Shown here: piece by piece, positions 5,414-29,770 of the stretch
Position numbering within the stretch: position 1 is the stretch's first letter
Layout of the letters: each line of letters starts with the position of its first letter
Source of the DNA: Cutibacterium sp.
Lineage (GTDB): Bacteria; Actinomycetota; Actinomycetes; Propionibacteriales; Propionibacteriaceae
DNA length: 64,000 nt
Reading direction: 5' to 3'
NCBI RefSeq assembly: GCF_030525615.1
Contig: NZ_JAUNEJ010000003.1
Span: 106,711-170,710 of the forward strand
Program-made: the position numbers and the translations under genes
The notes under the pieces: generated by a model
Told to the model about the DNA's origin: nothing
The model's database searches: none
The model's input: only the letters and a program-made list of their open reading frames with translations

Positions 5414-6411
5414 CAGCCCTCCAATCCGGCCATCGCCTCGTTGACCGCTTCGGCGGTGGGGGATGTGATGTCGTCGACGATACGGCCATCAAGCAGCATG
5501 AGGACCCGGTCGGCATAGGACGCTGCCTTGGCGTCGTGGGTGACCATGATGATCGTCTGGCCCAGGTCGTCGACGCAGTGGCGCAGATAGCTCAGCAGAT
5601 TCGCTCCCGACTTGGAGTCCAGGGCGCCAGTGGGCTCATCGGCAAAGACGACGTGCGGCTTGGTAATCATGGCTCGAGCACAGGCCACGCGCTGCTGCTG
5701 ACCGCCCGACAGTTCGGAGGGACGGTGCTTGAGACGATCAGCGATACCCAGGCCGGTGATGAGCTGGTCCCACAAGGCCGCGTCGGGCTTGCGCCCGGCC
5801 AGGTCGAGGGGCAGGAGGATGTTCTCCTCGGCGGTCAGCATTGGCAGTAGGTTGAACGATTGGAAGATGAATCCTACGTTGTCGCGACGCAAGGTCGTCA
5901 GTTTGGCGTCGGGAAGGTTCGAGAGTTCCTGGCCAGCTAGGAATACTCGACCGGAGGTGATTCGGTCCAGACCGGCCAGACAGTGCATGAGGGTGGACTT
6001 GCCAGACCCGGACGGCCCCATGATCGCGGTGAAGGTGCCACGGGTGAAACGAACGTTGACCGAATCCAAGGCAGTGACCCGGGTCTCCCCGTCGCCGTAG
6101 ACCTTGGTGAGGTCGATACCAGCGGCAGCGTCCGTTTCGACGGGAGTGTTCAACAGCCCGGGGGCCACAGAACGGCTTGCGGAGGCAGTACTGGAAGGGA
6201 GTGCGGCCGGGACGGCTTCGGCGGCACGAGCCGGTTTGTGATCTGGCCGTCCCCACGGCTGACTCGGCGGTTGCCCCTGCTCTTGGGGCGAGGAATCGGT
6301 CCACTCCGAAGGAACAGCGCGTCGCGGCGGCTGGAAGAACCCCGACTCGTCTGGGGTCGTGTGGTGTCGCCAGGGTTCTTTTGATTCGTAGGGTCGGTTC
6401 TGGTCGCTCAT
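5413..6411 (-). CDS. ABC transporter ATP-binding protein, MacB/LolD type
   Basis: 332 residues. A long Pro/Ser/Ala-rich, probably disordered N-terminal extension (about 1-110) precedes a standard ATPase domain: Walker A GPSGSGKST, Q-loop FIFQSFNLLP, signature LSGGQQQR, Walker B VVFADEPTGALDS, H-loop MVTHD. The ADEPTGALDS signature is characteristic of the MacB/LolD/BceA branch that pairs with FtsX permeases, encoded next. I chose the ATG ending at 6411 (MSDQNRP) because AAAGG stands six bases upstream; MKGI at 6423 is the alternative. A TATATATATG stretch lies just upstream (6476-6486). Confidence 0.92.
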   Translation of the reverse strand: MSDQNRPYESKEPWRHHTTPDESGFFQPPRRAVPSEWTDSSPQEQGQPPSQPWGRPDHKPARAAEAVPAALPSSTASASRSVAPGLLNTPVETDAAAGIDLTKVYGDGETRVTALDSVNVRFTRGTFTAIMGPSGSGKSTLMHCLAGLDRITSGRVFLAGQELSNLPDAKLTTLRRDNVGFIFQSFNLLPMLTAEENILLPLDLAGRKPDAALWDQLITGLGIADRLKHRPSELSGGQQQRVACARAMITKPHVVFADEPTGALDSKSGANLLSYLRHCVDDLGQTIIMVTHDAKAASYADRVLMLLDGRIVDDITSPTAEAVNEAMAGLEG

Positions 6412-6508
6412 GATGCCTTTCATAGTTCCCGAAGAGACGTCGGCGGATGGACACCCCTGCACGCCTTGGGTGACATATATATATGTGATGTATTCGATGT
6501 CTTTGATG

Positions 6509-7165
6509 TCAGATGAGGCCGACGTCGTGGGCAAAAAGCACAAGCCCGACGCGATCTCGGCACTCCAGTTTCGATAATAGTCGACCAATGTGAGTTTTCA
6601 CGGTGCCCTCTGCCATGTAAAGGGTTTGGGCGATTTCGGCGTTCGTCGCCCCCTTGGCGATTTCCACCAGTACCTCTCGCTCGCGGTCCGTCAGCACTGA
6701 CAGTCTCTTGTCGGCGGCTTTCGGGTCATTGGGCAGGGTGGGGACAACGTAATCCAGCAGGCGTCGAGTGGCAGAGGGGGCTACGACTGCGTCACCAGCA
6801 GCGACATTGCGGATCGCGCTGAGCAACTCGGTGGGCCGGGCGTCCTTGAGAAGGAATCCGGAGGCACCGGCCTTGAGGGCGGCGTAGACATACTCGTCGA
6901 GGTCGAAGGTGGTGAGAATCAGTACTTTCGTGTCCAGCGGAGATGCCGTGATACGTCTCGTGGCCTCGACGCCGTCCATCTGCGGCATCCGGATGTCCAT
7001 GAGAGCGACGTCAACTGGCATTCGACGCAGCACATCGAGAGCCTGGACTCCGTTCGACGCTTCCGCGACGACCTCCATGTCATCCTCGGCTTCGATGAGC
7101 ATACGAAACCCGGAACGGACCAGAGATTGGTCGTCAACAAGGATGACGCGGATCGGGTCAGGCAT
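6509..7165 (-). CDS. NarL/LuxR-family response regulator
   Basis: 218 residues. Receiver domain with the acidic pair D11/D12, phospho-acceptor D57 (ALMDIRMP), switch Thr (ILTTFD) and Lys (LLKDA), then a LuxR-type HTH (LTDREREVLVEIAKGATNAEIA and GTVKTHIGRLLSKL). Such regulators are normally encoded beside a HisKA_3 kinase. Here none adjoins, but an orphan-looking kinase of exactly that class lies on the same strand at 13676-15046, so the pair appears to have been split. The ABC ATPase and FtsX permease downstream are the likely targets. Confidence 0.93.
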   Translation of the reverse strand: MPDPIRVILVDDQSLVRSGFRMLIEAEDDMEVVAEASNGVQALDVLRRMPVDVALMDIRMPQMDGVEATRRITASPLDTKVLILTTFDLDEYVYAALKAGASGFLLKDARPTELLSAIRNVAAGDAVVAPSATRRLLDYVVPTLPNDPKAADKRLSVLTDREREVLVEIAKGATNAEIAQTLYMAEGTVKTHIGRLLSKLECRDRVGLVLFAHDVGLI

Positions 7166-26909: not shown

Positions 26910-26999
26910 TGAGGTCATTGTGATGAGTCCTTTATGTGAGTGTCGTTGATAACAGCTATGACCTCATAAGTTATACTGATTAGCAGCCATACAAGGAGG
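26910..26999 (+). promoter_or_regulatory. promoter/operator region of the small-peptide locus
   Basis: Inverted arms TGAGGTCAT (26910-26918) and ATGACCTCA (26958-26966) match perfectly; CTCATAAG also occurs as a direct repeat. A TATACT -10-like box is at 26972-26977 and TTGATA at 26946, though the 20-base spacing is long. AAGGAGG (26993-26999) is the ribosome site for the 60-aa ORF. Confidence 0.45.
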
Positions 27000-27006
27000 T
27001 ATAGGC

Positions 27007-27189
27007 ATGGACACTGCTAAGAGATCAGCAACAATCATCGCAGCCATCACCGCGTTCTTATCGATTTGTTGCAGCACCCCTGGAGCAGCTGCGCAAGAGT
27101 TCGAGCCAGAGAGTCGAGAGCAGAGTACTCCAAACCCAAGCGAAGCCCTTGATTTCTTTGCAGCAATCTCCACCCCGGTTCAACACTGA
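27007..27189 (+). CDS. secreted small protein, 60 residues
   Basis: Strong ribosome site AAGGAGG seven bases upstream of the ATG. A basic N-terminus (MDTAKR) and hydrophobic core (SATIIAAITAFLSICC) end at a GAAAQ signal-peptidase site near 28-29. The mature part is about 32 residues, acidic and Pro/Ser-rich at first, ending EALDFFAAISTPVQH, a short amphipathic helix. The stop overlaps the start of the next frame (TGATG), so the two are coupled. It could be a secreted bacteriocin half, a pheromone precursor or simply a leader. No homologue is recognised. Confidence 0.6.
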   Translation: MDTAKRSATIIAAITAFLSICCSTPGAAAQEFEPESREQSTPNPSEALDFFAAISTPVQH

Positions 27190-27284
27190 TGTGTGCACCA
27201 TTTTCCGGTCCTGCAGCGTGGGGCTGCGCCGTAGCAATGGGACTACTTGGGATGATGCCGAACTTCAACGACGCATGCGATTGA
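27189..27284 (+). CDS. 31-residue Cys-containing peptide
   Basis: Starts on the ATG that overlaps the previous stop and encodes a short peptide with Cys at 2, 13 and 30, a Gly/Ala-rich hydrophobic middle (AAWGCAVAMGLLGMM) and an acidic end. There is no separate ribosome site, which fits coupled translation. Size and amphipathic or hydrophobic core resemble antimicrobial peptides, but no family match is evident and no modifying enzyme remains nearby. It may also be the result of a single-base shift separating one longer precursor (60-aa ORF plus this peptide). Confidence 0.4.
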   Translation: MCAPFSGPAAWGCAVAMGLLGMMPNFNDACD

Positions 27285-27293
27285 GAGGGCGAA

Positions 27294-27530
27294 ATGAAAA
27301 AATACATCAATCCAGATAGTTTTTTTGTTAGATTTCTAGCAAATTTTGCACTATTCTACTCGGCTGCCATCGTAGTGATGGCTGTCGCATTTTTGACGGG
27401 GCATTGGAATACCTTAATATGCTTTGTCGGATTGTTGGTTTTCAGCGTACTTGCCGCCCTATTAAGGGCAGCAATTTCTAAGCCAGGAGAACCATTCATG
27501 AAGTCGCCTGTATTCAGAACTGATCGGTAA
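27294..27530 (+). CDS. two-helix membrane protein, immunity-like
   Basis: 78 residues encoded in notably AT-rich DNA, nine bases after the 31-aa peptide, with GAGGG upstream. Two membrane helices (about 12-34 and 40-60) and a basic tail. Small two-helix proteins encoded straight after a peptide gene are often immunity proteins, which is my reading here; the sequence itself is not recognised. Confidence 0.6.
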   Translation: MKKYINPDSFFVRFLANFALFYSAAIVVMAVAFLTGHWNTLICFVGLLVFSVLAALLRAAISKPGEPFMKSPVFRTDR

Positions 27531-27599
27531 TGCATTCTCCATTAATTCTGTAGTTTCGGGGGTTCGCTTCACAAAGTGAACTTCCGAAACTATCTCCTA

Positions 27600-28060
27600 G
27601 GTGTAGTTGCGCATGACGTTGTTTACGCCTGTGGGGAGTAGCGAGGTGGCTGGTCTGGTGAGGCGGTGTGGGGTCGATGATAGGTGTCGGGGATGTTGCC
27701 TACACCGATGGTGTGGACTGGTTCAGCTTCCCAACGGTAGGGGCGGGCGTCAAGAAGCTCCTCAGGGCTTGATCCGGTTATACCGTTCGACGGTGCAGCC
27801 CAAAGTCGGCGTAGCCATCACCCGACCGTGGCCTGAGAAATCCGGATACCACGATCTGCCAGGTCGATACAGATCAGCCGGGCCGACCACTGTCGTTCCC
27901 GCCCCAGCCTAGCGATGGTCTCGACGACCCCAGTAGGGGTTTGATGTGGGTGGGGCTGGCTGGTCCGATCAGTCAGTCCGGCTTCTCCGAGGCGGCGGTA
28001 CCGGTTGACCCATCGATTAACGCCCAGCAGCCCACCAGCACATCGATTACGTCCTGGTTG
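27600..28060 (-). pseudogene. IS481-like transposase remnant
   Basis: On the minus strand, a frame from about 28033 to 27818 reads as the HTH and linker of an IS481-type transposase: GLLGVNRWVNRYRRLGEAGL, then TDRTSQPHPHQTPTGVVETI and ARLGRERQWSARLICIDLAD, ISQATVG, ending at a stop. The same protein continues in two other frames (WLRRL, then GLHRRTV), so at least two frameshifts have killed it. The DDE catalytic part is missing. Confidence 0.7.
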
Positions 28061-28560: not shown

Positions 28561-29770
28561 TTGAATTCTCAGAGGTTATTGTTTCGGAAATTATATAGCA
28601 CGACGTTGATTAATTTGATTGGAGATGCTATCGCACAGCTTGCGCTTCCTCTAGCATTTCTTTACGCAACAGGCTCGATCAAGTTAGCCTCAACACTCGC
28701 TGGCGTCACTTTAATGACTCAGTTAGTTCTATCTCTGCCTTTAGCGGCGGTATCTGATCGGTTACCTCGAAGAAGGATTGTCTTCGCGGGATATCTGGTT
28801 GAAGGCATTTGCTTAACGGTCCTGGGGTGGTTGCTGTTGGGCGGTTTTGCGAATTTCGTACTTGTGACATTGGTAGGAATTATGCGCGGAGGTGCGAGTC
28901 AATTTGGTGTTGCCGCAAGTTCTGGATATGTTCCCCAACTGTTGGGGAGAGACGCAATGCTGAAGTTCAACTCCCGAGTTGAGACAATAGAGGGAGTGGC
29001 AGCGATTGGCGGGCCGTCGATATCCGGGGGGGATAGTGGGATTATTCGGTGGAGCGTACGCCGTATTTATCCCCGCCCTGTTGTCGTTTGTTAATGGTGC
29101 TATCTATTCCAGACTTCCAGACAAACCGGCGCCGCGCGCCGATGAAAATGAAAAGAGTTTAACGCTGCTCGTTATTGTGAACGATATACGTGAAGGCATT
29201 GGCTACGTGTGCAAAAGCCGAACGCTTGTCGCGATGATGGCCGTACAGTTTGCTCTGGGGGCGACGACTGCAGGATACGCGTTTGGGGTCGTCGTTCATC
29301 TTAGCGTCCATATGGGACTAAGTCCGTGGCATGTTGGTTTCACCATGGCCGCCTCTGGCGTCGGAGGGATCACTGCTTCTATTTTGCTCGAGCGGTTAGT
29401 CCCGTTGAAACAGTATCTTGCTGTACTCCTCATTTCTCTCATTGGCGTTGGTGTTATCCTTGCTACGTATTCAGCTATTCACTCTGTGCTTTTGGCGGCG
29501 GCATGTTTGTTTGTTCTTGATTTTTGCTGGGTTGGTATTTTCATTTATTCGGGAACGCTAAGCCAATATGTAACGGACGATGCGCACCTCGCACGTGTGG
29601 ATTCGGTGGCTGATCTGGTGTTCCTTGGAGCCTCGTCGATTTCTGCACTGTTAGCGGGCGTATTAATTAGTGACGGACATGTGGCAAAGTATCTTTGTGT
29701 GCTGGGGGTTTCGGTTGTTCCAGCGCTCGTGGCTTTGCTATTTATCAAGCGGGCCGACGAAACGGAATGA
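28561..29770 (+). pseudogene. MFS efflux transporter, frameshifted in a G7 tract
   Basis: Two overlapping frames together encode one 12-helix exporter of about 402 residues, of the EntS/MefA-like MFS group (first part FRKLYSTTLINLIGDAIAQL and PLAAVSDRLPRRR; second part from IVGLFGGAYAVFIPALLSFV to KRADETE). The break is at a run of seven G (29026-29032). With six G the sequence reads GPSISGGIVGLFGG and continues to the stop at 29770; with seven it ends at 29094. Initiation is at TTG 28561. Low GC and neighbouring transposase scraps point to acquisition. It may be off in this genome but restorable by slippage, so I do not regard it as a settled pseudogene. Confidence 0.85.
29026..29032 (+). 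repeat. homopolymeric G7 tract at the MFS frame break
   Basis: Seven consecutive G inside the coding region. Removing one restores the full reading frame. Such tracts are the classical substrate for slipped-strand phase variation, and homopolymeric G/C tracts have been described in C. acnes genes. Confidence 0.9.

Follow-up and report, generated by a model that had tools for sequence, protein, structure and literature searches.

Remnant of a four-cysteine pro-bacteriocin-like gene beside a conserved, presumed immunity gene in a Cutibacterium genome

Introduction

SdpC from Bacillus is a secreted precursor with a pro-domain, which frees the hydrophobic, helical, cysteine-containing peptide SDP and has a membrane immunity protein encoded nearby. 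The precursor of halocin C8 is secreted as well and consists of an N-terminal domain and a cysteine-rich C-terminal bacteriocin with ten cysteines. PAMP from Propionibacterium jensenii comprises 64 residues. Its secreted precursor (PAMP/PamA) has a length of 198 aa including a 27-aa signal peptide, and the active C-terminal peptide of 6383 Da is released by external proteases with cleavage at arginines (PMC5756557, reviewing Faye et al. 2002). Neither a cysteine pattern nor a neighbouring immunity gene is described for PAMP in the review (PMC5756557). Immunity genes kept after loss of the toxin or the exporter have been reported as orphan bacteriocin immunity in E. coli plasmids (PMC12546727) and in the 'cheater' loci of the pneumococcal blp system (PMC4517551).

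Here we analyze a locus within a stretch of 64,000 nucleotides from Cutibacterium sp., referred to as the window. Very probably, this locus is a laterally acquired bacteriocin operon in which the toxin gene is dead and the immunity gene is alive.

Results

Organization of the locus

The locus sits between glgP and pfkA. Where glgP and pfkA are also close together in other genomes of the genus, no related sequence was found between them. Three small reading frames (60, 31 and 78 aa; ORF60, ORF31 and ORF78) had been reported in a first-pass annotation. Their coordinates were confirmed, as were the overlap of the ORF31 start codon (27189) with the stop codon of ORF60 and the gap of 9 bases between ORF31 and ORF78. 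Homologues exist for all three, so the frames go beyond chance. For details see Table 1.

The GC content is 41% for ORF78 and 41% for the upstream region, compared to 61% for the whole window. This low GC content and the multicopy insertion-sequence scraps support the acquisition which the annotation had read from AT-rich flanks and transposase scraps. The good ribosome-binding site it described in front of ORF60 is indeed present in the sequence. The dyad promoter region it noted is real but modest: the 9-bp inverted repeat overlaps a promoter-like match, and by our own estimate chance alone would give about 0.4 pairs of this kind in the region searched. The dyad was rejected as a conserved operator, the pair being absent at every other family locus fetched. 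The nearby MFS protein had been put forward as a possible exporter. It is a poor candidate, since its gene is a frameshifted pseudogene and the precursors of the family described below carry a Sec-type signal peptide.

Table 1. Features of the locus (positions within the window).
Feature	Position	Strand	Description
9-bp inverted repeat	26910..26966		arms TGAGGTCAT (26910-26918) and ATGACCTCA (26958-26966), 39 nt between them
Promoter-like match	26949-26977		overlapped by the 9-bp inverted repeat
Ribosome-binding site	26994..27001 (approximate)	+	AAGGAGGT; strong; assigned to the former precursor gene
Decayed precursor gene	27007..27281	+	remnant of a secreted four-Cys bacteriocin-like precursor in two frames; from profile and alignment with intact relatives
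ORF60	27007..27189	+	signal peptide (~residues 1-29), shortened linker, pro-domain fragment TPNPSEALDFFAAIST (27127-27174); ends with out-of-frame PVQH and stop at 27187-27189
Deletion junction	27175..27176	+	2 nt in the window, 204 nt in G008, 198 nt in G055
ORF31	27189..27284	+	C-terminal half of the core with Cys 2, 3 and 4
ORF78	27294..27530	+	intact two-helix membrane protein, presumed immunity protein
19-nt inverted repeat	27551..27592		3' of ORF78, possible operon end
Insertion-sequence scraps	27590..28013		multicopy; ~20 partial matches elsewhere in the genome, 77-100% identical
MFS transporter gene	28561..29770	+	split by frameshift: profile 2-143 in one frame, 142-343 overlapping in another

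Intact relatives and the precursor family

One further genome of the genus, G008 (record title Acidipropionibacterium timonense), was found to encode a homologue of ORF78, with a larger secreted precursor encoded directly 5' of it. The precursor end and the membrane-protein gene of G008 align with window positions 27177-27500 at 74% identity over 324 bases, and ORF31 corresponds to the last 31-35 residues of the G008 precursor. In a search of the Propionibacteriaceae the closest intact precursor was a 197-aa protein from G055 ([Pseudopropionibacterium] massiliense). A gap of 9 bases separates its gene from that of an ORF78 homologue downstream. Single, continuous precursors together with a membrane protein are present in G055, G041, G038, G164, G158, G173, G061 and G204. 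ORF60 and ORF31 correspond to parts of these precursors.

Intact precursors comprise 189-251 aa and are built up from a signal peptide, a helical pro-domain and a C-terminal four-Cys core, in this order; the adjoining small membrane protein has 66-109 aa. In the family alignment (A1, 14 members) the invariant columns are one Lys and exactly four Cys, the spacing between Cys1 and Cys2 is always 17 residues, and the pro-domain contains the motif T-x-G-K-H-F. Basic residues are often located just 5' of Cys1 (RR-GIRC, RSRR-DVPTC, SAR-GSCCKC), which suggests a release of the core by a trypsin-like protease. An AlphaFold2 model based on two sequences was of moderate overall confidence (pLDDT 63). 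The helices of the pro-domain were confidently predicted (about 80-94), and the core was modeled as weak hydrophobic helices. None of the solved folds matched this model. The annotation had recognized no known family, and indeed neither the locus nor the family gave a match in Pfam, NCBIfam, PHROGs, PADLOC, PDB sequences or Rfam.

The precursor family occurs almost only in propionibacteria. It was detected in 21 of 199 Propionibacteriaceae genomes, the order-wide sample yielded one marginal match outside this family of bacteria, and when 395 genomes were sampled across the class, the window's own genome alone matched. No relatives of the window locus turned up in viral contigs, phage records or plasmid DNA. 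A distant precursor of the family is encoded as cargo on the 3.5-kb gut plasmid HG796345 from an uncultured bacterium (HG796345.1, 102-1012; locus L050). Its gene is overlapped by that of a 92-aa membrane protein, and apart from these two the plasmid has annotations for a RelBE-like pair and a likely replication gene.

A related four-Cys core is also present in G005 (L037), a further genome of the genus. The secreted protein encoded there at 1105-1668 is intact but has another pro-domain, and the gene for a membrane protein of 94 aa comes next. This locus is a possible sister family of pro-bacteriocins.

The precursor gene of the window is broken

A comparison of the family profile with the window resulted in three ordered pieces distributed over two frames: profile positions 5-44 (E = 0.13), 89-108 (E = 0.009) and 166-203 (E = 8e-12), the last being the C-terminal core in the frame of ORF31. 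The pro-domain fragment of ORF60, TPNPSEALDFFAAIST, has the counterpart TPNADEALDYFAAVST in G008. The deletion junction is flanked by the pro-domain scrap FFAAIST on one side and GSTLMC on the other. Approximately 200 bases are lost at this position, among them those for GKHF and for Cys1 of the core, and the reading frame changes. Furthermore, the N-terminal linker in front of the pro-domain scrap has lost about 40 codons compared to the relatives. A continuous four-Cys precursor is therefore not encoded, and the gene is a remnant of the family rather than a working member. As judged by these alignments, ORF60 and ORF31 are pieces of one ancestral precursor gene.

The homology of ORF31 extends in frame beyond its ATG in the 5' direction, starting at 27177 (GSTLMC versus GSALMC in the alignment), and the start of ORF31 is thus an internal Met codon. 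The TGATG overlap is a by-product of a CTG-ATG codon pair read in the other frame. ORF31 contains neither a signal peptide nor Cys1, the first of the four invariant core cysteines, and it cannot be the mature peptide of the four-Cys precursor family. The annotation had offered either coupling or a frameshifted longer precursor as an explanation. The longer precursor comes close; a simple frameshift does not, since a slip between the frames of ORF60 and ORF31 would not rebuild a precursor from which about 200 intervening bases are missing. Programmed frameshifting was rejected for the same reason and because there is no slippery site at the junction. The deletion was seen in the single genome of its species and may be peculiar to one strain or result from faulty assembly.

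Signature of purifying selection on ORF78

ORF78 shares 77% identity with its homologue in G008 and 38% with that in G055. In comparison with G008, its closest homologue, pN is 0.135 and pS is 0.875 (saturated), and this pattern vanishes when the DNA is read in the other two frames. ORF78 thus shows strong purifying selection, which may be older than the loss of the toxin.

Homologues of ORF78 adjoin precursors in G008, G055, G061, G070 and G096, and a divergent group of such membrane proteins has the motifs (N/W)P..F..RF and KPG in common. The immunity-like membrane protein of the first-pass annotation is supported: ORF78 is intact and has two predicted helices. It probably still guards the cell from the peptide of the lost precursor. 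The strong divergence of the immunity proteins within the family fits toxin specificity, and it fits other roles as well. Matches to the membrane protein in G097-G099 were judged to represent a distinct protein of the chromosome with other neighbouring genes. On contig C25 of G041 (L078) an ORF78 homologue was observed with no visible precursor upstream, a candidate orphan immunity gene.

Recurrent breakage of the precursor gene

In total, 26 loci were compared, found mostly through the precursor and with the identical G087 and G088 taken as one. The precursor is uninterrupted at 11 of them (G005 with its divergent pro-domain, G038, G041, G055a, G061, G158a, G158b, G164, G173, G204 and the plasmid), its start is uncertain at two (G054 and G070b), and it is broken at the remaining 13. 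The damage consists of internal deletions (the window, G000, as well as G055b, G070c and G140), frameshifts by small indels (G008, G070a and G074), stop codons or lost N-termini (G065, G088, G096 and G162) and heavy decay (G006 and G062, where the membrane-protein frame is lost too). Relative to G055a, G070a has two substitutions and an insertion of 2 bases, and the membrane proteins of both are identical.

The membrane-protein frame is still open at 11 of the 13 broken loci, i.e. at least 10 besides the window, and none of the 26 loci combines a fully intact precursor with a missing membrane-protein frame. If single hits fell at random according to gene length (toxin share ~0.71), 11 of 11 would have a probability of ~0.02, a rough value, as most loci were detected by way of the precursor and some of the single-indel cases may be sequencing errors. 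Such an asymmetry of loss is a prediction of a toxin-immunity pair. We see about even chances that an uncatalogued four-Cys pro-bacteriocin family exists among propionibacteria in which the toxin is repeatedly and independently destroyed, by internal deletions, frameshifts and stop codons, and the immunity is kept, with immunity-only lineages, a Cutibacterium among them, being common.

In-frame internal deletions were observed in G070 (L069, 3081-3551) and in the second copy of G055 (L075). The signal peptide, or the signal peptide and the start of the pro-domain, is joined to the end of the core in these fusions, and the immunity-like gene is intact in both.

Discussion

Comparison with described systems

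In its mode of working PAMP appears to be the closest known kind, set beside the family by description: its precursor is secreted and similar in length to those of the family, whose active part is presumed to be C-terminal as well, and both come from Propionibacteriaceae. In the G041 and G038 precursors, the C-terminal 64 residues are cationic and have a mass of 6386.5 before disulfide formation, compared to 6383 Da for PAMP, a suggestive agreement in mass alone. Among the intact relatives, C-terminal 64-aa masses range from 6375 to 6953, two of them being 6386.5. The G041 and G038 precursors differ from that of PAMP in their length of 189 aa instead of 198 aa.

The family resembles SdpC/SDP in having a secreted pro-domain precursor for a cysteine-containing, hydrophobic peptide and a membrane immunity-like neighbour. 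However, no family member matched the SdpC model in NCBIfam or Pfam, no SdpA/SdpB-type maturation genes were noticed beside the window locus, and SdpI is a larger multi-pass protein, unlike the small membrane protein of the family. With halocin C8 it shares a secreted precursor with an N-terminal domain and a C-terminal, cysteine-containing core, but the core has four cysteines instead of ten and there was no profile match. As in the orphan loci of E. coli plasmids and blp, where the toxin gene or the exporter has decayed, the immunity gene has been kept here beside a decayed toxin gene; toxin classes and hosts are different, and protection by ORF78 is presumed. With a non-functional toxin gene and an intact presumed immunity frame, the locus presents the arrangement of an orphan immunity locus.

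Alternative explanations

In the first-pass annotation the locus was understood as a small bacteriocin operon with two functional peptide genes. The bacteriocin type of the locus is retained, whereas the two genes become one broken precursor gene. On that reading the 60-aa peptide would be secreted, the 31-aa three-Cys peptide would be made by translational coupling and ORF78 would provide immunity, in agreement with the good ribosome-binding site, the stop/start overlap, the open frames and the strong conservation of the C-terminal core relative to G008. Nevertheless, both parts lie in one continuous protein in the relatives, ORF31 starts at an internal Met and lacks a secretion signal and Cys1, and ORF60 terminates out of frame past the pro-domain scrap, which makes two functional products extremely improbable. 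It is also very unlikely that the locus encodes a new functional short form, i.e. a core devoid of its pro-domain and obtained by reinitiation or frameshifting. Its parallel would be locus c of G070, an in-frame fusion of the signal peptide with the core end, and internal deletions sparing the core end do recur there, in G140 and in the second copy of G055 (the latter keeping just the last residues of the core). Yet Cys1 is missing from every such form, the reading frame is not kept in G140 and in the window, no slippery site is visible at the window junction, and internal deletions also arise by neutral decay.

Insertion-sequence scraps and a broken MFS gene adjoin the locus and the membrane-protein frame is also gone in G006 and G062, so ORF78 might be dead like the rest, its open frame being a recent survivor. 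We consider this unlikely in view of the 77% amino acid identity at saturated synonymous divergence and the 11 of 13 broken loci with an open membrane-protein frame. A role other than an antibacterial one, such as that of a secreted peptide acting in signalling or in the envelope, with a membrane protein (e.g. a receptor) as its partner, has in its favor that the antibacterial activity of the members is itself deduced and that a model of the family is absent from the libraries. The patchy, mobile distribution, the presence on a minimal plasmid and the asymmetry of loss, with the toxin going before the immunity, render it decidedly unlikely. For the acquired operon with a dead toxin gene and a living immunity gene, decay of the island as a whole favors neutral loss of the toxin, the retention of ORF78 being the exception.

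Proposed mechanism

Based on the intact relatives we propose the following scheme, in which we infer the killing, the maturation and the immunity. A precursor of ~190-250 aa would be exported through its signal peptide and held inactive or folded by the helical pro-domain. Proteolysis just 5' of Cys1 would free a hydrophobic peptide of ~50-65 aa with four cysteines, presumably forming two disulfides, which may harm related bacteria at their membranes. The producer would be shielded by the small membrane protein whose gene directly follows that of the precursor. In the window, two internal losses, of part of the linker and of about 200 bases with GKHF and Cys1, have left the ends in different frames. 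Ribosomes may still reach the immunity gene by way of the remaining TGATG overlap and the short distance to ORF78. The strain would make no bacteriocin, yet it could stay immune to that of its neighbours.

The coupled 31-aa cysteine peptide is a tempting misreading and should not be synthesized as a candidate bacteriocin. The interest lies instead in the intact, uncatalogued family and in the recurrent loss of its toxin. It is the intact members (e.g. G055, G041 and plasmid HG796345) that are genuine candidates for a family of narrow-spectrum bacteriocins directed at propionibacteria, and the window locus is a testable case of immunity that may have outlasted its toxin.
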